From a virus: 26,920 nt of DNA. This document shows, piece by piece, positions 160 through 11,466 of this stretch. Below the pieces are notes generated by a model. It ran no database searches. It saw only the letters and a program-made list of their open reading frames with translations, and was not told where the DNA came from. The translations under genes and the position numbers were made by a program. The stretch is taken from positions 1 to 26,920 of IMG/VR virus record IMGVR_UViG_3300032271_000426; one strand, 5' to 3'. Position 1 is the stretch's first letter, and each line of letters opens with the position of its first letter.

Positions 160-308
160 TTGGAGCCTCCGTTCGTTATGTAAGCCAAACCTCGCGTCTC
201 TCTCTCAATCATTGCATGCTGGGCGAAGACCAATAATTTTCTAATGTCTCGACGAACACCGCGGATTCGATGGATTTTAATCGGAAGCGGTCCAGTTTTG
301 TTTTTCAC
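156..308 (-). CDS. Small basic protein of unknown function (50 aa), coupled to bet
   Basis: The GTG start at 308 sits inside the bet stop (GTGA, 305-308), and the stop overlaps the next start (GTGA, 156-159), so the ORF tiles exactly between two genes. The product is very basic (for example KIHRIRGVRRDIRKLLVF) with a short hydrophobic stretch, which would suit a nucleic-acid-binding accessory protein, but no family is recognised. A longer upstream start is possible but would overlap bet by about 90 nt. Support comes from the tiling rather than from homology. Confidence 0.6.
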   Translation of the reverse strand: MKNKTGPLPIKIHRIRGVRRDIRKLLVFAQHAMIERETRGLAYITNGGSK

Positions 309-1225
309 TTTGCACCCCCATCCTTGAGCGCAAGAACAACGTCGGACGCGGACTTGACCATTCGGCTGGCAAGTGACACTGGCACCGAGTCGAAGCAATC
401 AACCTCATGCTTGGCAAGGCCGGCTCCGATGGCCCAGGTCTGCCATTGGTCAAATGTGAAGCCCGCTCCGGTGACGATGTTGGCAAGCTGATCCTGCGGA
501 GACATCGGGCCAACGCCTGCGGTGTCAACTGGTGGCGCCTTTGGGGCCTCGGCGACGGCCGTAGCCACATCGATAATCGGCGCAGATTCTGGCGCCGCCT
601 TTGCATCCTGCACGGCCTTGACGGTCTCCTTTGTGGTCTTGGTGAAGATGGGCCGCGCTACCGTTTCCACGCTGGTCACATTAGCGACCGTCATCGCCTC
701 GTCCTCGTCGTGAATTCCGGAGAACCCGAACGCGACACGGGCGGCTTGGATCAACGCCTTGTGACGCAGCATCCGGCGAGGGCTCTTATTCCATGGGTCG
801 GTGTTGCGGTAGCATTCTGCGTAATACTCCGTTACTCGCACAGGCCGGGTGCGGCCCTTGATATAAATTGAGGCGGTGACGCAGTGCGGTTTCCCGTCAA
901 TGTCCTCAGACGCAAACTCAATGCCGTCGAATTCAGGGCGGCGATTCATCAGGGAGCACCAGCCATCGACGCCCACAACCGGCGTTATACCGCCGCTCTT
1001 GTTCGGAAATGCGTGGATTTCCTTGAGGAACGGATTCAACTGGTAGGCGTTTGCCACAATGCAGAACGCCTGCATCTCCTCGTCGGTTGCCTTGGGCAAG
1101 ATCGTTGCCTTAAGCGTTGCGAGAAACTTCGTGGGGTCGATCTGGTATTGCGCGGCCATGGTCTGGATAAGGCCAGGGCGAGGCGCGGGAACGGTGACTG
1201 CGGTGGTTGGTGCGTTTTGGCTCAT
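305..1225 (-). CDS. bet: Phage recombination protein Bet (Red-beta/RecT-type single-strand annealing protein)
   Basis: A 306-aa protein that should bind single-stranded DNA and anneal complementary strands during phage recombination, normally with a 5'-3' exonuclease. The N-terminal two thirds follow lambda Bet closely. Residues 57-88 contain IVANAYQLNPFLKEIHAFP and the family signature PVVGVDGW; residues 144-168 contain PWNKSPRRMLRHKALIQAAR and the AFGF motif. Lambda Bet is about 261 aa; the extra length is an Ala/Pro-rich linker after residue 180 and a C-terminal segment. The ATG at 1225 has no Shine-Dalgarno sequence; the bases just upstream are A-rich. The stop overlaps the start of the next small gene (GTGA). 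The exonuclease partner is not in the window. Confidence 0.95.
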   Translation of the reverse strand: MSQNAPTTAVTVPAPRPGLIQTMAAQYQIDPTKFLATLKATILPKATDEEMQAFCIVANAYQLNPFLKEIHAFPNKSGGITPVVGVDGWCSLMNRRPEFDGIEFASEDIDGKPHCVTASIYIKGRTRPVRVTEYYAECYRNTDPWNKSPRRMLRHKALIQAARVAFGFSGIHDEDEAMTVANVTSVETVARPIFTKTTKETVKAVQDAKAAPESAPIIDVATAVAEAPKAPPVDTAGVGPMSPQDQLANIVTGAGFTFDQWQTWAIGAGLAKHEVDCFDSVPVSLASRMVKSASDVVLALKDGGAK

Positions 1226-2038: not shown

Positions 2039-2233
2039 CTACCGGTTGGCGTGAGATGCCGCCGGCTCCTGAATGGACTCGGTCGCGGGGTTGGGGGAGT
2101 GCGGGGGGAAAGTGTCGTGCAAGTCGCGCTCCATCTTTGCGTCAATCTCAGTCGCAATCGCGGCGGCGCGGAAGACGATTGCAATTACGATTGCGGAGGC
2201 GGTAATGCACGCTGATAGGAGTATCCAGCTCAT
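2039..2233 (-). CDS. Small single-pass membrane protein (64 aa)
   Basis: The ATG at 2233 overlaps the preceding stop (ATGA, 2230-2233). The N-terminus MSWILLSACITASAIVIAIV is one hydrophobic segment of about 20 residues. It is followed by a charged helix (ATEIDAKMERDLHD) and a Pro/Ser/Glu-rich tail. It is the third gene in a tightly coupled trio with a ribbon-helix-helix protein and another tiny membrane protein. No family is recognised. A longer start at 2293 would overlap two genes and is less likely. Confidence 0.6.
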   Translation of the reverse strand: MSWILLSACITASAIVIAIVFRAAAIATEIDAKMERDLHDTFPPHSPNPATESIQEPAASHANR

Positions 2234-2343
2234 ACGAAAAGAAAGCAGGCGATCAAGCAAACCATCGCGACGCAGGCCAACAGGGTGCCACAAGGCGACG
2301 AGTCAAGCCAATCTGCGGCTATGGTGAGAAGTTCGGAGATCAC
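2230..2343 (-). CDS. Tiny membrane protein (37 aa)
   Basis: GTG start at 2343 overlapping the previous stop (GTGA, 2340-2343), and stop overlapping the next start (ATGA, 2230-2233). The protein begins MISELLTIAADWLDSS and ends in one strongly hydrophobic helix of about 20 residues rich in Cys, Ala, Val and Leu. The exact fit between neighbours on both sides is the main evidence. It may act with the 64-aa membrane protein encoded next. Function unknown. Confidence 0.5.
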   Translation of the reverse strand: MISELLTIAADWLDSSPCGTLLACVAMVCLIACFLFV

Positions 2344-2519
2344 GCGATGCCTTTCGTGTTCGCCACGCACTGCTTGAGCATCGCGACGCACTGCGATGAC
2401 AAATCCCGGTCGCATTCCTTGGCAAGCGTCTCAAGCGCCCCCCGAAGCTCCATAGTCGGGTAAATCGTGATCGACGGCTTGGCGGGCGCCTTGGGATTCT
2501 TGGTTTGATTGGATTTCAT
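2340..2519 (-). CDS. Ribbon-helix-helix-like small DNA-binding protein (59 aa)
   Basis: ATG at 2519, TGA at 2340. After a Lys/Pro-rich N-terminal arm, residues 17-21 (SITIY) fit the beta strand of an Arc/MetJ-type fold. They are followed by two predicted helices (MELRGALETLAKECDRDLSS, then QCVAMLKQCV) with the usual spacing. Such proteins dimerise and bind operators through the strand. There is no Shine-Dalgarno sequence before the start (CACCCCATG). The stop is coupled to the 37-aa membrane protein. It is a candidate regulator of this small-gene region; the assignment rests on pattern only. Confidence 0.6.
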   Translation of the reverse strand: MKSNQTKNPKAPAKPSITIYPTMELRGALETLAKECDRDLSSQCVAMLKQCVANTKGIA

Positions 2520-2555
2520 GGGGTGCTCAGGGATTAGGAGAGCTGTTCGGGGTGG

Positions 2556-2780
2556 TCATGGTAGGATGGGTAAAATCTTGGTGGTAATAAATGCCTTTGA
2601 CTGGCTAGTGTGAGCCCCGTCATAAAATCCCCCAGCTACCTTTCGTACCTCCTGGTACCAAAAGTACCAGTCGTTCCTAGCTGAGCTAGCTCGTCGAGTG
2701 TTGGTGAGTGATGCTGCGGCCCGGAGAATACCGGACTTGGGGGTGGAGGTGGTCATGGGGGTAGTGGAGGTGGAGTTCAT
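2556..2780 (-). CDS. Doubtful small ORF (74 aa) with a Thr/Ser-rich N-terminus
   Basis: ATG at 2780 with an alternative in-frame ATG at 2756; both are followed by Thr/Ser codons. The middle carries Arg-rich and aromatic residues (ARNDWYFWYQEVRKVAGGFY) that look like a small folded domain. The ORF starts 30 nt after the upstream gene ends and is on the same strand as everything else. No family is recognised. Its low-complexity start resembles that of the gene at 2811-3122. Confidence 0.4.
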   Translation of the reverse strand: MNSTSTTPMTTSTPKSGILRAAASLTNTRRASSARNDWYFWYQEVRKVAGGFYDGAHTSQSKAFITTKILPILP

Positions 2781-2810
2781 GGACTGGATTTGTTAGGTGT
2801 TAAGGCGCGA

Positions 2811-3122
2811 TCAGGCGGGAATGATGTCGTGAAGCATCTTGGATGGGACCGGCTTGCCAGTATCAGCCCAGTTGGCGTGCGATTTGTACTTGTGGCCGTT
2901 GCCCTGGAGGCTACGCCCCCAGCTCGTGTAGCTAAGTTGCACCCCGCGCTCACCAACGCGAGCTGGAACAACGTCAAACGAAAATCGCTTGGCATTGCGA
3001 ACCGGAGCGTGGACATAAGTTTGTCCAAATTTCCGGGTGTTAACGATGTATCCGATCATGTGCCCGATGAGCTGAGAAGGGGTAAGTGAATCAGTGGTAG
3101 TGGTGGTGGTGGAGAGGGTCAT
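2811..3122 (-). CDS. Hypothetical protein (103 aa) with a poly-Thr N-terminus
   Basis: The start chosen is ATG at 3122 (MTLSTTTTTTDSLTPSQLIG). The frame is open further upstream, but the extension looks unlike coding sequence with this start. After the Thr run the protein has a short helix (SQLIGHMIGYIVNT), then a basic and aromatic region (YVHAPVRNAKRFSFDVVPAR, YTSWGRSLQGNGHKYKSHA). It resembles small basic phage accessory proteins but matches no family I can name. The candidate promoter at 3172-3199 is placed to serve it. Confidence 0.55.
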   Translation of the reverse strand: MTLSTTTTTTDSLTPSQLIGHMIGYIVNTRKFGQTYVHAPVRNAKRFSFDVVPARVGERGVQLSYTSWGRSLQGNGHKYKSHANWADTGKPVPSKMLHDIIPA

Positions 3123-3171
3123 GGGAGTGGCGGGGTTGGTGGAGAGGGTTAGTCGTTTGTGTCTGCCGTCA

Positions 3172-3199
3172 TTTCTACCACCTCGTCGCAACCGTTCAA
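3172..3199 (-). promoter_or_regulatory. Weak candidate sigma70-type promoter
   Basis: Read on the minus strand: TTGAAC (3194-3199), a 16-nt spacer, then TAGAAA (3172-3177), about 50 nt upstream of the ATG at 3122. Both boxes deviate from consensus and the spacer is one short, so this is a position-supported guess only. Confidence 0.25.
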
Positions 3200-3210
3200 T
3201 AACTTTCTTT

Positions 3211-3235
3211 ACCTTTTTTAACTGTTGGAAAAGGT
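3211..3235. repeat. Perfect 7-bp inverted repeat, possible operator
   Basis: ACCTTTT at 3211-3217 and AAAAGGT at 3229-3235, separated by 11 nt, directly upstream of the candidate promoter. Spacing and symmetry suit a dimeric repressor. A ribbon-helix-helix candidate is encoded 0.7 kb downstream. The AT-rich arms would make a weak RNA stem, so a terminator is unlikely. Confidence 0.3.
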
Positions 3236-3506
3236 TAAATGGGGGTTGACAGGGGGATTCGGGGAGCGTAGATGCGCGGTGTTTTGGAAACTCGGCCTGG
3301 AGAACCCGCGTTGCGTTAAGCAGAATCGGAACGGCTTTCCAAAAGAAACAGGCCGACCCATTGCTGAGACGGCCTAGATACGGGATTCGGAAGTCACTCC
3401 GATTGCCACTCACCCTCCCGCGGAGCTGGCGGTCGACTAGCCACCGACCATACGATGTGTCGCCGCCGTGGCCACACAATCAAGAAAGCAAAGCGTGCCG
3501 CCGCTG

Positions 3507-3677
3507 TCAAGCCTCCTCAAACATCCTCAAAAACTCCGCCTTGCGCCGGACGGTGAGCCGACCGCCAGGCTTTTTGAACGCCACGGCAGGCTCTCGAATC
3601 TCGCCCGTGCGGATCTCCGCGGAGTCGTCCACCACTTCGACGATCAGGCGCGGGTTGTGTCGGTTGCGGTATTTCAA
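3507..3677 (-). CDS. Small basic protein (56 aa) coupled to the metallophosphoesterase
   Basis: TTG start at 3677 overlapping the upstream stop (TTGA, 3674-3677), with a G-run (AAGGGGG) about 10 nt upstream. The protein has a basic N-terminus (KYRNRHNPRLIVEVVDDSAE), a likely beta hairpin (RLIVEVVDD, EIRTGEI), and ends with a charged helix (VRRKAEFLRMFEEA). No family is recognised. It is the last member of a chain of five genes joined by 4-nt overlaps. Use of TTG is unusual here, but no better start exists. Confidence 0.6.
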   Translation of the reverse strand: MKYRNRHNPRLIVEVVDDSAEIRTGEIREPAVAFKKPGGRLTVRRKAEFLRMFEEA

Positions 3678-4663
3678 AGCACGGCCCCCTTTAGGATTCG
3701 CTTGTTGTGGACTTGGAACGCTCCGGAGCGGTCAACGTCGATGACAGCAAATCCGTGGTTCCATCGGTTGATCCGAGCGTAGGCAGGTTTCAAATCGCAG
3801 AGGCATCCGGTTGACCAAGTGGAAATGAGCTTGTCCTCAAGCGTGGTTTCGGAGTGCTCCGATGAACGATGCAGGTGCCCCTGCATTACACACGCGATCG
3901 CCTTGAGGAAAGCGCCGCGCGCCGGGTTGACCGGGGTTGAAATTCCACCGCGCCATTCGTGCCCGTGGAGAATCGGCAGCTTTCCGGCCATGATAATCCT
4001 TCCGTCTTGAACCACTTCGACGCCGTGCTTTTCCGATTCCACCAGGGCATCAAATGTGGCGAAAGAGCATCCGAGGAGTTCCGGCGCCTTGCCCCACAGA
4101 TATGCCCACCAACGCTCCTCGTGGTTGCCGAGCTTGTAAATGATCCGTGCCTTTTGAAACCGTGCGCGGAGGTGAGCCAACAGCTCGCGTATGGCTTTAA
4201 TTTCGCCGGCTAAATCACGCTCCTCGGGATTGCACAGAAAGCGCGAGATGGAATGGAAGTCCACCGCGTCGCCGTTTAGCAGGACCACGCTGGGGTTCAC
4301 TTTGTCTCCGTGCTTGAGCGCCGCGTTGAGTGCCGCGGGGTCGTGGAAAGGGACGTGAATGTCAGACAGGACGAGGATCTTTTCAGCGCCCAGCTTGAAC
4401 GGAACCCAAGGCTTCGCATGAGATTCTGGAATTGGTGGCAAGGCAACAACCGAAGAGGGGCGGCGTGCCACCTCAGATTTTAGAAATCCTTTTTGCATAA
4501 TGTTTCCCGGCGTGACAGATCGAACGCACCACCGCGCCGCCTCGTAATCTCGCCAGCGTTTCGGGTACTTCTCGTAAACGGCCCGCGCCACAGCATTGAT
4601 CGGGTGCTCCGGAAACCGATCCAAAAACTCGCGGCATATCTGCGTGTTGGTGATTCGTTTCAT
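3674..4663 (-). CDS. Calcineurin-like metallophosphoesterase (329 aa)
   Basis: All motifs of the metallophosphoesterase fold are present in order: DxH at 101-103 (LSDIHVPFHD), GD at 131-132 (LLNGDAVDFH), GNHE at 179-182, HGHE at 233-236, and GHLH at 262-265. These bind two metal ions and hydrolyse phosphoesters; the substrate cannot be read from sequence. The N-terminal 90 residues are an additional basic domain (KRITNTQICREFLDRFPEHP), probably a helical DNA- or protein-binding part. The ATG overlaps the upstream stop (ATGA, 4660-4663) and the stop overlaps the next start (TTGA). Phage homologues are usually placed in nucleotide or DNA processing, so coupling to tail genes is notable. Confidence 0.9.
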   Translation of the reverse strand: MKRITNTQICREFLDRFPEHPINAVARAVYEKYPKRWRDYEAARWCVRSVTPGNIMQKGFLKSEVARRPSSVVALPPIPESHAKPWVPFKLGAEKILVLSDIHVPFHDPAALNAALKHGDKVNPSVVLLNGDAVDFHSISRFLCNPEERDLAGEIKAIRELLAHLRARFQKARIIYKLGNHEERWWAYLWGKAPELLGCSFATFDALVESEKHGVEVVQDGRIIMAGKLPILHGHEWRGGISTPVNPARGAFLKAIACVMQGHLHRSSEHSETTLEDKLISTWSTGCLCDLKPAYARINRWNHGFAVIDVDRSGAFQVHNKRILKGAVL

Positions 4664-4896
4664 TTGTGAATTCTCCTAAAGCCGAGCTTCCAAAGTTTCG
4701 ACGAAATCAGGCGCGACACGCGGACCACTTTTGACTCGGAGAGTTCCGGTTGAGCGACGTGGAGCAGTTCATGGATTGCGGTGTCGAGGTACTCTTTCGA
4801 GCATTGCCGTGGGTCGATTTCAACGAGGTCATCCCACGCCTGCCCAAGCGCACGTTCTCGCCCGAGTTTGCGTTCGATGATCTCAACCTTTTTCAC
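4660..4896 (-). CDS. Small HExxH-motif protein (78 aa), possible zinc metalloprotease-like
   Basis: The start chosen is GTG at 4896 because it overlaps the upstream stop (GTGA, 4893-4896); ATGs at 4938 and 4989 would overlap the previous gene. Near the middle lies IHELLHVAQPELSESKV, containing HExxH, the zinc-binding active-site helix of zincin peptidases. It is followed by a helix ending SSKLWKLGFRR. Small phage proteins with a HEALH-like motif, an SE pair about nine residues later and a terminal LWxLG are common; their function is unproven. The protein is too short for a standard protease domain, so activity is uncertain. Confidence 0.7.
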   Translation of the reverse strand: MKKVEIIERKLGRERALGQAWDDLVEIDPRQCSKEYLDTAIHELLHVAQPELSESKVVRVSRLISSKLWKLGFRRIHK

Positions 4897-5126
4897 CGTG
4901 TCCACTTTCCAGCGCCGCAGCGCCGCAGGTTCTGCCATGGGTTGATTCTCGACGAGTTCAGAGGGCAACCGCACGACGGGTTGAAGCATTTGGGACCGGT
5001 CGCGTCACGCTCTCCTAACCACTCGCACGATCGACACAACTCCTCGCGTTGAGATGTCGTCATTTCGGGCGCAACAGGAGTGCCGAGTTGAACATCCCGA
5101 AGGTAGCTGTCTGACTTGAATTTCAT
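4893..5126 (-). CDS. Small zinc-ribbon-like protein (77 aa)
   Basis: ATG at 5126 overlaps the stop of the 1,247-aa gene (ATGA, 5123-5126). From about residue 31 there is a four-cysteine arrangement: CRSC, then KCFNPSCGC, with a final RRCGAGKW. This pattern, ending in Cys-x(3)-W, is typical of short phage zinc-ribbon proteins. The N-terminal 20 residues are unstructured and an internal ATG (MTTSQREELCR) is an alternative start. Its role is unknown; such ribbons bind nucleic acid or act as structural clips. It leads a coupled chain with the HExxH and phosphoesterase genes. Confidence 0.7.
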   Translation of the reverse strand: MKFKSDSYLRDVQLGTPVAPEMTTSQREELCRSCEWLGERDATGPKCFNPSCGCPLNSSRINPWQNLRRCGAGKWTR

Positions 5127-8100
5127 TGCGAGACAACCGGCACGTCCAGGATGAGAGCATCAGGTAGCACGGGTGTCACACTCAACACGTTTCCCGCACC
5201 GCCATTGCAGCTCGTTGGGTAGGTAGTGCCGCCGTAAAAATTGAACGTCTGCTGCCCGACTGCCGGGGGCGGATTCGATCCGCTGACTCCGTAGGTGCAT
5301 CCGGGGGTAGTGTTATACGCAACGGTGAACACCATGTATCCCATCGACGACGGGTAAGCGTTCGTTACCGCGCCGCAACCATCGCCCGAGCCCCCCTGAT
5401 ACTTCGCGGTCATGTTCTCGATCTGCTGCGTGGTCGTGAGCAGCGCCGCGGAGCGCGTGTAGAGTTGATCGCGCCAAGTCAACGGGATGGCCTCCACAGC
5501 GTCCGGGTCTGTGACCTCATACTGCCATTTCTGAGTTACTCGCGTGGTGCGGATGTTGTCCCCGGTGCCGCCCGACGCTGGGAAGTCAACCGCCGCGGAG
5601 ACCGAACACGCGGCCGATGATGCGTCCGTCCACGCTCCGTAACTGGAAGGGCTCGGAGCATCCAGCGGTGAACCATGCCAGAAACCAACGGCTCCGAACC
5701 CGAGGCTTATATTTGCAGAGTCGTCGGTGTTTCGGAATTGCGCCGGTAGCCAAACGGACGAAGTGCCCTCCGATTGTTGGAACTTAAACGGCAGCATGAC
5801 CCGCACTTGGGTCAGCAAGTTAATAGCCGATACGTACTGATTAAACGCCTCGGCGGCGGCGTAAACGGTCGGCAGTGGCCCGAATCCTTCCGGATTGTCG
5901 TCGCGCACGTCCGCGGCCTTGATCGCCTTGGTTGCGGTGCCTGCGAGCATGGAGAACCACCGGCCCTTGAAGGCGGCGTAGCAGAGGTTGGGGAACGTGT
6001 AATCGAACACGGCGTTGACGCCCGAATCACAGCCGTATTGAAGCGACGTGACACCGTCCACGTAGCCCTCGCACATGACGCGCAGGTAGAGTTCCATCTG
6101 GCTGAATTGGTCCACCCGGAACGGAGTGTCGGTGCTCTGCTGCGTGTCGTTCCCGTCCTCGTACGGTTTCGGGACTAGCTGAGTGAACCGGAACGACGGG
6201 TAGCAAGTGCCGTAGGGCGCATCCAGAAGCGTCTCAACCGTGCTGTGGATCTCCGCGTTCCCGGGTTGGATGCCATTATTGACGCACTGGTTTCCGAGCA
6301 CTTGGTTGACAAGATACTCTCGGATCGCGTTCTCGTTCGACCGGAATGGTTCCGCTTGGAGGTCGGCCACGTTCCACCCCGCAGGGCCTGCGCTGATGCT
6401 GGACGCGGCGCCAAGAGCGAAGCCGTAGGTGGAATGCAACCGCCCCTTGAGCGTGACTTTTATCCTGCGCTCTCCGTACTGGTCAGCCTCCTCCACAGAT
6501 TCAACCTCAACGTCCGGCTCAAACACCCGGCACGATCGGTAAAAAGATTTCCGCCGCGCCTCGCACGCGGGGTCTCCGCCGCAGTTGATCCGGTTGAGCC
6601 CGAGAGAGGTCTCGGCGTACCGGTAGCCGGTGGGCAGCTCTGGCGCGATCCATGTCGGCCCGCTGCCACTGTTGTATTGCCCGCCGCCTGACGCATTGAT
6701 GTTTGCGTGTCGGGTGATGTCGGATGCCACCGTAGGCACGTTCGGCGTGTAGAAATTGCAGCGTTCAACCGTCGTGGTCGCGAAGTAATCCGAGTAGGCC
6801 GACGGCTTCCAAATACTGGTGTCGCTCGGGTTGTAGCCGGTGAACGAGCACCCGAAAAGCCACTCGTTCGACCAACCTTTCTGCGGAGCTGTGGTAACAA
6901 TCCCGTTGCTCTCGTAAACCTTGCAGTCGCCACTTTGCTCGTAGGTCGCGCCGCCGGCCGTGGTCGTGGTGAATTTCTGCGATGGCCCGTAAATCAGCCT
7001 TCCGTAGACGACGCTTCCGGTGGTCCCGGTGACGAGGTATTCGCGCCCGATTTGCAGGTATCCCGAGACAACCTCCGACATTGATGGACCGATTCCATCG
7101 AACGCGTCCGCGGGGGTTTCGTGCGACAGTCCGGAAGCATAGCGCCTGAACCAAAGCACGCTCTTTCCTCCGGTGACGGCGTAGTCAACGAGATGAAACC
7201 GGGGAAGAATCCGAAGATGTTTGGACAGCCTCCTCGCGGCGTCGAACACGGCGTTGGTGTTGATCGGCCCGAGGCTCCCAGGCAGCGCGAGTTCCCCGCG
7301 CCGATTCTGGACCATGCAGTTGCCGAAGTAGTCGTCACTCAATCCGCGCGACTGGCTTTCGCATAGACCGCTCCCGTCCGTCCCGTTGCTCTCTGAACTC
7401 AGCGCACCCGCGAGCCGCAGGACAAGGTAGAGGTCCATGCCGCCTGGTTTGTAGGGGTAAAGCTCAGCAATCTCCGCCACTAGGCCGGCCGTGGACGAGA
7501 CTTCCGTGAAGGATGCCCCAGAATCCACACGAAGCGACAAAGACTCGCCAGCGACCGGCGGGGACGCAAGGCGCACCGTTGCCGAGCCTGCATTCGTCGT
7601 CGGGTCGGGGGTGAGTGTGGCAGTTCCGACAACCGTGGTTCCCGAGAGCAGGGAAACCGTCACAGGGCCGGCGAGCTTCTGCCCGAGGACGGCGAACGCC
7701 GCGGCTACCGTCCCGGAGGTGACAACGTGCGCGGAGCCCTCGGCGGCGAACGTCATTCGCGTGCCGGCAGCAATCGTCAGCGCCCCGGAGAGAGTCGCTT
7801 GGGGATATATCGGCTGGACGAACGAGTGCCCGAGGCCGTCTTTCTCCTCGATGCCACGGGCCGGCGCGAGGAGGTATTGAGCCGTTAGGAAAGCCTGCGC
7901 GTCGAACGCGTTTCCCATCCATGGCGCTTTCCCGGTCTCCTCGTCCTGCTGTTGGTTGATGTCCCCGCGGAACTGCGCGGCCCATGAGTTGACCGCCCGC
8001 TGGATTCCGTCGCCGCTCGTTTTCTGAAGCGTGTTTCCACCGGTGTAGGGCCCTTCGATGTAGTCCGATTTCGACAGGATGGAGTAGGCGCCCGCGTGGT

Positions 8101-8866
8101 TCTGGAGGATGTAATCGAACGGCGTGTAGTAAATCCCGATGAGATCGCCGGCTCGCTCTGGGCAGAATCCCAAGTAGGTTAGCGTCGGAAGTCCGTCCTT
8201 CAGCGGCGTAAATGTCAGCGTGTACTCATGCCGAATGATACCGTCCGCAGTCGCCGCGCAGTCCGTGCCGGTGGTCGGAGGCGTCGGAACAAACCCGCCA
8301 AACGCGTTGCCATGTGGTGAGGTTATGGACTGGCGGAGGTAGTAGTGCTCGCGCGCCGCGGTGAAGCTCGGAGACGCCAACGCCCCGGAGGTTGGATCGA
8401 AAGCCCCACGCTGGTACTTGCCGAGCGTCCACTTCTCCCAGGCTGTCTGCGGCGTGTAGGTCGCGCCGAGGGTCAAAGGCACGCCACCGGATCCCGGATC
8501 AGTCACCCGCTGATCCTCGCCGTAGATCCCCGCGGCGGCCGCGCCGAACACGAACGACGGCCACACCGACGCCACGTTGCACCCTTCGCCGTCGCCCGGG
8601 CCCGCGTCCGGCCACTGGGCATCGCTTGGCTTCAGGTGCTGATAGACGTGATGGAACTCCGCCTGCGGAGGCCACAGGAGCCCGCTGTCGTCCGGGTTTC
8701 GGATCTGACGAAACTGGTTCAGCCAAAAGTACGCGAGCCGATACGGTCCATCTCCAAGCCCAGAGATGAGCCGATCATTGACCGCGTTCGCCAGGGCAAT
8801 CAGGTCCGAAGACTTGACCCGATCCCCCACCGCGACAGTCCGCGCCTGCCGGAAGGTGATGGCCAC
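5123..8866 (-). CDS. Cysteine-rich 1,247-aa tail-tip/host-specificity protein (putative)
   Basis: The largest gene. GTG start at 8866, 6 nt after the upstream stop. Position downstream of the tape measure and small tail genes is where lambda-type phages encode the central tail fibre or tip, so that role is inferred, not read from a recognised domain. The N-terminal 60 residues are helical (RVKSSDLIALANAVNDRLIS), like the attachment region of tail proteins. A beta-rich insert near residues 370-470 (GTVAAAFAVLGQKLAGPVTV, TVVGTATLTPDPTTNAGSAT) resembles an Ig-like domain. I count 20 cysteines spread along the chain, including INCGGDPACEARRKSFYRSC, high for a tail protein. No peptidase motif was seen. 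Confidence 0.75.
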   Translation of the reverse strand: MAITFRQARTVAVGDRVKSSDLIALANAVNDRLISGLGDGPYRLAYFWLNQFRQIRNPDDSGLLWPPQAEFHHVYQHLKPSDAQWPDAGPGDGEGCNVASVWPSFVFGAAAAGIYGEDQRVTDPGSGGVPLTLGATYTPQTAWEKWTLGKYQRGAFDPTSGALASPSFTAAREHYYLRQSITSPHGNAFGGFVPTPPTTGTDCAATADGIIRHEYTLTFTPLKDGLPTLTYLGFCPERAGDLIGIYYTPFDYILQNHAGAYSILSKSDYIEGPYTGGNTLQKTSGDGIQRAVNSWAAQFRGDINQQQDEETGKAPWMGNAFDAQAFLTAQYLLAPARGIEEKDGLGHSFVQPIYPQATLSGALTIAAGTRMTFAAEGSAHVVTSGTVAAAFAVLGQKLAGPVTVSLLSGTTVVGTATLTPDPTTNAGSATVRLASPPVAGESLSLRVDSGASFTEVSSTAGLVAEIAELYPYKPGGMDLYLVLRLAGALSSESNGTDGSGLCESQSRGLSDDYFGNCMVQNRRGELALPGSLGPINTNAVFDAARRLSKHLRILPRFHLVDYAVTGGKSVLWFRRYASGLSHETPADAFDGIGPSMSEVVSGYLQIGREYLVTGTTGSVVYGRLIYGPSQKFTTTTAGGATYEQSGDCKVYESNGIVTTAPQKGWSNEWLFGCSFTGYNPSDTSIWKPSAYSDYFATTTVERCNFYTPNVPTVASDITRHANINASGGGQYNSGSGPTWIAPELPTGYRYAETSLGLNRINCGGDPACEARRKSFYRSCRVFEPDVEVESVEEADQYGERRIKVTLKGRLHSTYGFALGAASSISAGPAGWNVADLQAEPFRSNENAIREYLVNQVLGNQCVNNGIQPGNAEIHSTVETLLDAPYGTCYPSFRFTQLVPKPYEDGNDTQQSTDTPFRVDQFSQMELYLRVMCEGYVDGVTSLQYGCDSGVNAVFDYTFPNLCYAAFKGRWFSMLAGTATKAIKAADVRDDNPEGFGPLPTVYAAAEAFNQYVSAINLLTQVRVMLPFKFQQSEGTSSVWLPAQFRNTDDSANISLGFGAVGFWHGSPLDAPSPSSYGAWTDASSAACSVSAAVDFPASGGTGDNIRTTRVTQKWQYEVTDPDAVEAIPLTWRDQLYTRSAALLTTTQQIENMTAKYQGGSGDGCGAVTNAYPSSMGYMVFTVAYNTTPGCTYGVSGSNPPPAVGQQTFNFYGGTTYPTSCNGGAGNVLSVTPVLPDALILDVPVVSQ

Positions 8867-9482: not shown

Positions 9483-10306
9483 ACGACGAGATATAGATCC
9501 TTGTCCCATGCTGAGAACGCCCAGGTAAGCGACTCCTCCCAGCGAGCGGTTGCCCGGTTGTAGCTCAACCTGACTCCGCGAAGTTTCCACGACCAGACGC
9601 CCGCAATGGTTCCGTCGGTGTTGACCGGTGTTTCGGTGTCTGGCGGATCAATTGGGAGCGTGTTTTGAATTGCGACAGGGACAGCAAAAGTGGAAACGAG
9701 CGATTCCGTTTTGTAAACCGTCTCGCGTTGAACAACCTGCGTTCGGCTTGTGTAGGCGTCCGTGTAAGTGCGGATCTTTGAAAGCACAGGGCGCTTTGTC
9801 TCGTAGTATTCGACGTTGTTTACGAGCTTGCTGTAAACTCGATAGACTGCCGGGTATCCAGCGCGATCAATTAGCGGATAGTCCTCGCCATTTTGAACCG
9901 CATCGGTGATCTGCTTCTTGAGCTTTGACGGAGTTAGACCTGATCCAAAAAGAGACACGTAGGAGTTAAGCTCTCGAATCACTTCAGGGATTGCCCAGAT
10001 CGAAATCTGGACAAGTTCCTCATCGAGGTCCCATCGCTCAATCGGAACCTCAGCAGCCGGGTTTGAAGCGGTGCTCGGGTCCTTGGCGAATGTGGCAACC
10101 ATCCGGCACTTTCCTCCGGTTGATGTGGTTTCAGTCTTGGCTCCGTACGCCAGCACCGTTGCCGCCATTAATTGCACCCCCCATTCCGAGCCCTCGTAGG
10201 TAAGCACCCACGACGAACCGTTGACAGGGTCAGTCAACAGACGCTGCTCAACAAGATCGCACTGAGCCGCCAGAGTAGCGGGTGAAAACAGGTGAGTATT
10301 GCTCAT
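9479..10306 (-). CDS. Tail protein downstream of the tape measure (275 aa)
   Basis: ATG at 10306 overlaps the tape-measure stop (ATGA, 10303-10306). It is a mixed alpha/beta protein with a long central region (SSWVLTYEGSEWGVQLMAAT, RPVLSKIRTYTDAYTSRTQV) and a C-terminal segment rich in aromatic residues (TIAGVWSWKLRGVRLSYNRA). The position matches that of distal tail or tail-tip baseplate proteins in lambda-like genomes. No domain is recognised, so the role is inferred from order only. Confidence 0.75.
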   Translation of the reverse strand: MSNTHLFSPATLAAQCDLVEQRLLTDPVNGSSWVLTYEGSEWGVQLMAATVLAYGAKTETTSTGGKCRMVATFAKDPSTASNPAAEVPIERWDLDEELVQISIWAIPEVIRELNSYVSLFGSGLTPSKLKKQITDAVQNGEDYPLIDRAGYPAVYRVYSKLVNNVEYYETKRPVLSKIRTYTDAYTSRTQVVQRETVYKTESLVSTFAVPVAIQNTLPIDPPDTETPVNTDGTIAGVWSWKLRGVRLSYNRATARWEESLTWAFSAWDKDLYLVV

Positions 10307-11466
10307 GGCGCGTCGAGATTAAACTTGTCATCCAATTTTTTAATCTCTTCTTTGATCTCCTGAAGTACGTATGTCGTTTTCTTAGACTCGCTCAACAGGG
10401 ATTGATTGGCCTGGTCACCAAAAAAGTACCCTCCGACGTTAGCAAGACTTCCAGATCCTCCTTTTGATGAGATTCCATGAATCGCGGTTGACTTCTCAAC
10501 CTCCTTAAACGAGTTCCGCCCCATTTCCTGTCCAGACCTCATATTATCAAGAGCCTTCTGTCGGTCGGACTTATTTTTAGCGCTTTGCTTTATAGCATCA
10601 TCCCATGCGGAACCACCTTCCAACGATGTTGGGCCTCTTACTGCCCCTTCGTAAGCTCCGGATAGTGCTCCAACGATTTGACCAAAAGAACTCATCAGCA
10701 TGCTGTTGATGTTCCATGGCCCTGAATTGTTTCGTTCTCCATACGACGCGTTCTTCGCCATTTGGTTAAGAGCGCCAATCTTCATTTCGTTCCAGACTTC
10801 ATTTGCCCCAGAGAATGATCGCCCCCATTTACTTGATACCTCCTTCAATCGCCTTTCAGCATCTTCTGCTTCATGAATGTTGTCCTCACTAAACAGTTTG
10901 ATTGGACCCAAAGTGGCCAACTTTTGGGCTATGTTTTTGATGACGGTAGCGTGTTTTCCAAGAAGCTCAAACTGAGCGTTCTGAACATCAAGCGAGCTAC
11001 CGTTTTTAGAAGCTGAAGATCCGATCTCTTTTAGGATATCAACCGCGCTTTTTGTGGACACGATTTCCTTATCACTGACTCCAAGTTTATTAAACATGTC
11101 CGCAAGGTGTCCTCCAGTTTCCCCTCCTTGAGCAGCCTTCGCTCTAGCCTTTTGGATACGCTCAAGGATTGGCGCAATGTCACCAAACTCCAGCCCGAGG
11201 CGACCAGACGCCTTCTGAAGTTTTTGTACTTCGTCGGTAGTTATTCCGTATTGCCTCGATAGTTTACCGATCTCAACTTGAGCTGATTGGATTTTCTCGA
11301 TCATCCGCTCAACGGTGTAGATCGAGAACGCGGCAGCCAATGCGCCGCCGATCTTGGCGTGCATCTTTTCAGCAAACTCAGATGCGGCGCTTCCAGCTTT
11401 TTTCAGCCCAGACTCGAACCCGTCGGTATTGAGCGACAGACGGCCAATGAGAGAAAGAAGACTCAT
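10303..11466 (-). CDS. Tail tape measure protein (387 aa)
   Basis: The N-terminus (MSLLSLIGRLSLNTDGFESG) is typical of tape measure proteins, followed by long helices and a hydrophobic patch near residues 40-55 (GGALAAAFSIYTVERMIEK). The C-terminus has the frequent pattern of a glycine-rich turn before a terminal helix (LANVGGYFFGDQ, VLQEIKEEIKKL). It should run along the tail tube and set its length. At about 1.5 angstrom per residue the tail would be at most about 60 nm, short for a siphovirus. No lytic domain was seen. The gene looks AT-richer than its neighbours. Its ATG shares one base with the previous stop (TGATG). Confidence 0.88.
   Translation of the reverse strand: MSLLSLIGRLSLNTDGFESGLKKAGSAASEFAEKMHAKIGGALAAAFSIYTVERMIEKIQSAQVEIGKLSRQYGITTDEVQKLQKASGRLGLEFGDIAPILERIQKARAKAAQGGETGGHLADMFNKLGVSDKEIVSTKSAVDILKEIGSSASKNGSSLDVQNAQFELLGKHATVIKNIAQKLATLGPIKLFSEDNIHEAEDAERRLKEVSSKWGRSFSGANEVWNEMKIGALNQMAKNASYGERNNSGPWNINSMLMSSFGQIVGALSGAYEGAVRGPTSLEGGSAWDDAIKQSAKNKSDRQKALDNMRSGQEMGRNSFKEVEKSTAIHGISSKGGSGSLANVGGYFFGDQANQSLLSESKKTTYVLQEIKEEIKKLDDKFNLDAP

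Follow-up and report, generated by a model that had tools for sequence, protein, structure and literature searches.

Our analysis has shown that a small HExxH protein of the kind encoded in this viral DNA has, in many uncultured phages, a metallophosphoesterase (MPE) as its steady partner, and that MPEs of several distinct families can occupy the place beside it. Based on the families, the folds and the gene neighbourhoods, we suggest that the two proteins form a DNA- or nucleoprotein-processing protease-phosphoesterase pair, a reading to which we assign a probability of roughly 0.38.

The window, which is the whole stretch analysed, is a linear virus record of 26,920 bases (IMGVR_UViG_3300032271_000426). 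Its minus strand carries, in order, genes for a terminase, a portal protein, a capsid protein, a tail fibre and a short tape-measure-like protein. These are followed by a 1,247-aa gene, a chain of four small to mid-sized genes and, at the end, a RecT/Bet gene; all genes of the chain lie on this strand. The features that concern us are as follows.

10303..11466, minus strand: short tape-measure-like protein of the upstream tail module (phrog_9483, 1.8e-9)
5123..8866, minus strand: 1,247-aa protein, presumed tail tip or adhesin, head of the chain; GTG start, 20 cysteines
4893..5126, minus strand: 77-aa zinc-ribbon-like protein (CxxC...C...CxC...CxxGxW)
4660..4896, minus strand: 78-aa HExxH protein, putative protease; GTG start, motif HELLH, minimal gluzincin fold in the structure model
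3674..4663, minus strand: 329-aa MPE (phrog_221) with complete metal-binding motifs
3507..3677, minus strand: 56-aa conserved protein with homologues in other records
305..1225, minus strand: RecT/Bet-type annealing protein of the downstream recombination module (PF03837, 4.1e-27; phrog_252, 2.8e-61)

The preliminary description had each of the four chain genes starting within the stop of its predecessor, and the bases bear this out. The 1,247-aa gene and the zinc-ribbon gene are joined by ATGA at 5126-5123, the zinc-ribbon and HExxH genes by GTGA at 4896-4893, the HExxH and MPE genes by ATGA at 4663-4660, and the MPE and 56-aa genes by TTGA at 3677-3674. Three of the chain genes do carry the metal-binding motifs attributed to them, namely CxxC..C..CxC..C in the ribbon, HExxH, and the MPE ligand set. 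The 1,247-aa gene comes downstream, after the tape-measure-like gene (11466..10303); its product has no Pfam family at E<=1 and a single, weak match to an unnamed PHROG (0.0075), and its "tail-tip" identity is presumed from its neighbours. Rfam and tRNA scans of the window gave no useful result, an NCBIfam search gave no match up to the cut-off, and a scan of the window found one promoter-like site (2.8 expected) and six terminator-like sites (9.4 expected). Elsewhere in the window, a 682-aa protein at 15666-17714 matches the colanic acid degradation family phrog_6117 (1.2e-26) and is likely a capsule depolymerase. The interval 2040-3480, which separates the chain from the RecT module, holds no frame that matches any family well.

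The bias of nucleotide changes towards third codon positions indicates that the HExxH gene encodes a real protein under purifying selection: the homologue in locus L083 is 95% identical, and 41 of the 50 nucleotide differences between the two genes fall at third positions. A longer frame beginning with ATG at 4989 was considered and is disfavoured, since the L083 homologue begins with ATG exactly at the GTG site. Residues H42, E43, H46 and E54 are invariant in all 23 aligned sequences, and Glu54 is likely the third metal ligand. The structure model (pLDDT 92) forms a five-element minimal gluzincin-like domain. Its nearest solved folds are PprI/IrrE (Z 6.1), Wss1 (6.0), selecase (5.5) and Spartan (4.3), with selecase/abylysin at Z 5.3-5.5; every structure match has Z<8 and perhaps reflects the common core only. 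A profile of the family run against PDB sequences placed IrrE (0.011) and Spartan (0.063) at the top, weakly. The window protein itself matches neither the SprT-like (PF10263) nor the IrrE/Peptidase_M78 (PF06114) family at E<=1. Among its relatives in the full alignment (A1, too diverse to scan with), PF10263 is matched at E<=1 in 7/23 and PF06114 in 10/23 (best 7.7e-7). Wss1 and Spartan are termed minigluzincins in the available text of PMC4559962. The HExxH protein resembles SprT/Spartan, Wss1 and IrrE/PprI in its invariant motif and modelled five-element minimal fold, and SprT/Spartan also in position, as SprT-like genes over the Pfam cut-off stand in for it beside the MPE in L038 and L026. 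It differs from these proteins in being just 78 aa long, in having no DNA-binding tail and in its likely third ligand, Glu54. From the model and the motif we infer a putative minimal zinc protease. The family is nearly missing from 50,697 catalogued phage records.

How regularly the HExxH gene is accompanied by an MPE was assessed in three sets of loci (A4, A3 and A6) gathered through the HExxH protein alone, the loci, alignments and profiles being picked by the analyst from the matches. An MPE within 1.5 kb of HExxH counted as paired, and loci with too-short flanks were counted apart as untestable. In the A4 set, the best 80 of 272 matches, an MPE lies directly downstream in 73 of 73 testable loci (family A in 26, B in 30, C in 5 and D in 12). 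An MPE is also near HExxH in 29 of the 36 testable A3 loci (39 in all) and in 7 of the 28 testable loci (37 in all) of A6, the window's own HExxH subfamily. For the other 21 of these 28, no member of families A-F lies within 1.5 kb, and 8 of the 21 records, which may be fragments, are without any PF00149 match. Families B to F were drawn up only once loci apparently without an MPE had been inspected; with family A alone, before that step, the tallies stood at 26/56 testable A4 loci (again among the best 80 of 272) and 26/36 in A3. These tallies are by locus; identical HExxH cores were merged in the tree and gap statistics.

By PHROG, family A corresponds to phrog_221, B to phrog_284 (exonuclease, 2e-33), C to phrog_7339 (DNA repair exonuclease, 2e-11) and D to phrog_704 (DNA repair exonuclease, 9e-67). 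Families A, B and C did not overlap in the frames they claimed, and D was assigned by best E-value. Families C and D have Metallophos-type Pfam matches below the cut-off. Family B, with no Pfam match at E<=1 except unrelated weak ones, is called an MPE from its PHROG, its motifs (by eye) and the cross-match of D to phrog_284. Seen from the MPE side, the best 80 of 91 family-A loci fall into 33 clusters, and 22 of the 31 testable ones have HExxH, or a SprT-like protein in its stead, no more than 1.5 kb upstream or downstream. For family B, HExxH is upstream in 38 of 52 testable loci (56 in all), or 15/17 clusters, and 14 of the 52 are without it. No HExxH neighbour was seen in the cultured MPE relatives P8625, Mvi-JY20 and MA9V-2, and the catalogued cultured records yielded no phage that carries the pair.

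The two genes are not only close but closely joined, the gap being <=19 bp, and mostly an overlap, in 32/32 cores with a family-A MPE downstream; the pair is found in reverse order too. A tree of 94 HExxH rows shows every row of the A4 clade, 51/51, with an MPE (B 27, A 13, D 6, C 5), and 22 changes of MPE family are needed across all paired rows, a count that is not firm because the tree rests on 82 columns and has many weak forks. Judged by its starred branches, with each family taken singly, the minimum number of changes is 4 for A, 5 for B, 3 for C and 4 for D. Moreover, identical HExxH rows stand beside different MPE families in two pairs of loci, L143/L144 and L197/L189. The literature searched, which lacked most subscription journals, yielded no description of the HExxH-MPE pairing. 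The pairing counts bear on the view that the genes have no joint function: small genes would tend to settle at the 3' end of a late operon, and the overlaps would be a sign of tight packing. Genes in the slot do vary (zinc ribbon, other Cys proteins, glycosyltransferase-like and, by eye, HNH-like genes), and the subfamily to which the window's HExxH belongs is for the most part unpaired. However, that four MPE families fill one slot in every testable A4 locus among the best 80 of 272, and that the order can be reversed, argues otherwise, and we consider this view quite unlikely.

Other genes near the pair were also noted; glycosyltransferase, HNH and integrase labels in the relatives are partly by eye. 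At L018:8947-9534 an HNH endonuclease-like gene (by eye) separates MPE from HExxH, which are some 555 bp apart, and a like insert is found in L010, L012, L022 and L026. Directly after the MPE are an Nmad1-like gene at L131:7578-8060 (PF07659, 3e-5, just under the cut-off) and a dATP/dGTP diphosphohydrolase-like gene at L016:8972-9493. A mannosyltransferase-like gene (L019:6774-7697; PF11051, 1.4e-32) lies between tail and HExxH. In some phages (L214-L219, L227-L230 and L234), a W-type HExxH gene is beside an opposite-strand gene like that of the terminase large subunit, a neighbour read by eye in L214, L215, L227, L228, L229 and L234.

The MPE of the window belongs to PF00149 (31.1 bits; curated cut-off 21.5) and to phrog_221 (6.8e-41), its Pfam matches being to the general Metallophos and Metallophos_2 families only. 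Residues D101, H103, D132, N180, H181, H233, H263 and H265 are invariant in 20/20 aligned sequences, and DxH, GD, GNH, H and GHxH, which we take to be the ligand motifs of metallophosphoesterases, are all present. Its model (pLDDT 79) consists of an N-terminal three-helix domain (residues 6-50), a low-confidence linker and the MPE domain. The nearest fold is LpxH (Z 14.1), then PolD DP1, SbcD (12.8) and Mre11 (12.6). By sequence it is no member of SbcD/Mre11, with no PDB sequence matched at E<=0.01. It resembles SbcD/Mre11 in its common MPE fold (Z 12.6-12.8) and in that the alternative MPEs of the window-type slot carry exonuclease names, and differs in that no SbcC/Rad50-like partner was noticed adjoining it and the lipid enzyme LpxH is nearer in fold. 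A search of 13 records found homologues of the 56-aa frame, the next beyond the MPE, in 3: the closely similar L003 and L004, where the homologue comes immediately after the MPE, and L083, where it comes about 0.2 kb later.

Several MPEs of cluster A mycobacteriophages are about 25-30% identical to the window MPE (E about 1e-8 to 1e-16). The MPEs Bxb1 gp47, A10ZJ24 Gp48 and D29 gp66 share its PHROG, in the case of Gp48 presumably, and its complete motifs. According to the available text of PMC12287305, Gp48 degrades DNA in vitro, degrades host DNA, is required against M. tuberculosis and is expressed early; works cited there describe Bxb1 gp47 as being without phosphoesterase activity and D29 gp66 as a cyclic-nucleotide phosphodiesterase. 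In contrast to these proteins, and to the early expression reported in that text for Gp48, the window MPE is translationally coupled to HExxH after a tail gene and has an N-terminal three-helix domain. One cluster A homologue is annotated 'recombination directionality factor', and the MPE could accordingly be viewed as a replication or recombination-directionality protein like Bxb1 gp47, with the small genes as passengers. This distant homology is in its favour, as are the DNA modules after the MPE in both the window and P8625. However, the window showed no serine integrase, the integrase-like neighbours in relatives resemble tyrosine recombinases (by eye), and the presumed passengers are conserved. 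A pattern scan of one genome from each of 84,980 species gave 2 loci, so prophages carrying a window-type MPE are rare. A role of this kind seems to us improbable.

The surroundings of family-A MPEs (best 80 of 91 loci) suggest that the pair often ends a tail operon, since tail-like genes lie upstream and DNA genes downstream. Upstream, 17 clusters have a 305-aa protein, tail-like by position, at about 3.8 kb, and 13 gene sets (12 clusters and P8625) have a tape-measure-like protein at about 5.1 kb. Downstream are a 173-aa protein in 10 clusters, whose representative matches dATP/dGTP diphosphohydrolase (PF18909, 4.9e-20), integrase-like genes on the opposite strand (10) and RecT-like genes (7 clusters and P8625). 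In many phages the HExxH-MPE pair comes after the tail genes and shares their strand. The MPE of the cultured Verrucomicrobia phage P8625 lies between tail/holin-like genes and those for a dNMP kinase, RecT and a helicase; there, as in the window, RecT and other DNA genes come after the MPE on the same strand. Such a position would also suit counter-defence, with the proteins produced along with the tail and some of them packaged or acting late. The MPE would then damage host DNA or signalling molecules, and the protease would remove a host defence or repressor protein. The degradation of host DNA by Gp48 and its requirement against M. tuberculosis (in the text of PMC12287305 available) agree with this, as do weak matches of a few HExxH relatives to virion RNA polymerase models (phrog_2206 in 3/23, best 3.1e-4; PDB 11fw, 0.87). 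Nevertheless, the same text has Gp48 expressed early, and HExxH is found in replication modules too; we regard counter-defence as unlikely.

A fixed chain with the tail gene had been proposed to suggest a common late role, perhaps in tail-tip maturation, DNA entry or defence evasion, and conserved co-occurrence of its genes in other phages had been named as a check. The chain does recur in unrelated phages, but in parts. The order tail homologue, zinc ribbon, HExxH, with overlapping starts, is found again in three records (L213, L223 and L224), MPE followed by the 56-aa gene in L003/L004, and HExxH with MPE widely. The 1,247-aa homologues in these three, of 13 records searched, are 38-41% identical (E about 1e-117). 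They came to light only via HExxH loci; as a lone query the protein found no relative in IMG/VR nor in phage records. In L213 a zinc-ribbon-like gene overlaps the end of the homologue (ATGA), and next comes HExxH, whose GTG start is within the ribbon gene. No MPE comes directly after HExxH there; a gene that resembles an MPE by eye and one that is YqaJ-like are about 3.3 kb or more downstream.

The zinc ribbon as a lone query gave 6 pattern matches and 0 confirmed relatives. A profile built on the cysteine pattern of 8 loci, the window among them, gave 21 matches, of which 17 are directly upstream of HExxH (the window counted; L236 weak); L001, among the other 4, is a repeat retrieval of the window gene itself. 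Loci with ribbon and HExxH include MPEs of families A, B and C. The ribbon of L051 resembles DUF6171 below threshold (22.7 bits; cut-off 27), whereas that of the window has no Pfam match at E<=1, DUF6171 included. Upstream of the HExxH gene, a Cys-rich open frame was seen in 48/53 distinct cases (A4 set and window). Tail blocks often close with a gene whose product is very rich in cysteine and frequently has a CC or CCC cluster early on, as in L051:6063-7007 (25 Cys; no family match), L033:6250-7047 (33) and L138:3043-5424 (46). In 7 clusters an Erv1/Alr thiol-oxidase-like gene immediately precedes the MPE (L024:7631-8089, PF04777 4.3e-10, with matching genes in L010, L012, L018, L022, L038 and L042), in some after Cys-rich tail-end genes; it is possibly a phage disulfide-folding aid. 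Together, these genes hint at tail protein folding nearby.

If the chain served tail-tip maturation, HExxH would process the tail protein, the zinc ribbon would aid folding and the MPE would assist DNA entry. The order conserved in L213/L223/L224, the Cys-rich upstream frames and the Erv1/Alr-like gene in 7 clusters fit this. However, HExxH relatives also lie far from tail genes, and their commonest constant partner is the MPE. The scattering into early modules that would weigh against a tail role was encountered in part. In L083, HExxH is in a replication module (DnaB-like helicase by eye), 4.2 kb from the MPE; in L205, L206 and L208 it is beside a helicase-like gene; and in L209, L210, L212, L216 and L225 it is near a clamp-loader-like gene. 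Given the bond between HExxH and MPE, the mostly unpaired A6 subfamily and its several members in replication modules, a role in tail maturation is not supported, and we find it improbable. A tail maturation protease was dropped as the main reading because HExxH keeps its MPE partner outside tail modules.

Taken together, the company HExxH keeps with an MPE that is often of a nuclease kind suggests DNA handling rather than tail building. In cells, SprT/Wss1-type proteases remove DNA-bound protein and Mre11-type nucleases cut exposed DNA. SbcCD, in the available text of PMC6265447, cuts DNA close to a protein block. Along with the folds, Gp48 and the minigluzincins, this leads us to infer a protease and a phosphoesterase acting on DNA-bound protein. 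The core of the chain would be a two-enzyme cassette, a minimal zinc protease and an MPE of the broad Mre11/SbcD fold class, which the small zinc ribbon may help in some phages. The two would act in succession on protein-bound or blocked DNA, with the HExxH protease stripping protein off and the MPE cutting or trimming the DNA thus exposed. In many phages the pair would be made from the final genes of the tail operon, just ahead of integrase or recombination genes.

A more far-reaching version, which we consider unlikely, is that this is an unrecognised two-component system of many uncultured phages, a viral counterpart of Spartan/Wss1 and Mre11, in which a gluzincin protease of 78 to 100 aa and an interchangeable MPE nuclease clear proteins from DNA. 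The protease half would stay constant while the nuclease half is swapped among distinct families; the proteins cleared would be those on blocked ends, crosslinks, or host defence or repair complexes on DNA, and production at the end of the tail operon would allow action at packaging or in the next cell.

In conclusion, the parts of this cassette belong to or resemble known superfamilies, and what the literature searched does not describe is the constant association of HExxH with an MPE drawn from any of four families. We predict that the protease and the nuclease work on one substrate. Should DNA-bound protein prove to be what the pair acts on, these genes would offer a very small model for the handling of DNA-protein crosslinks.
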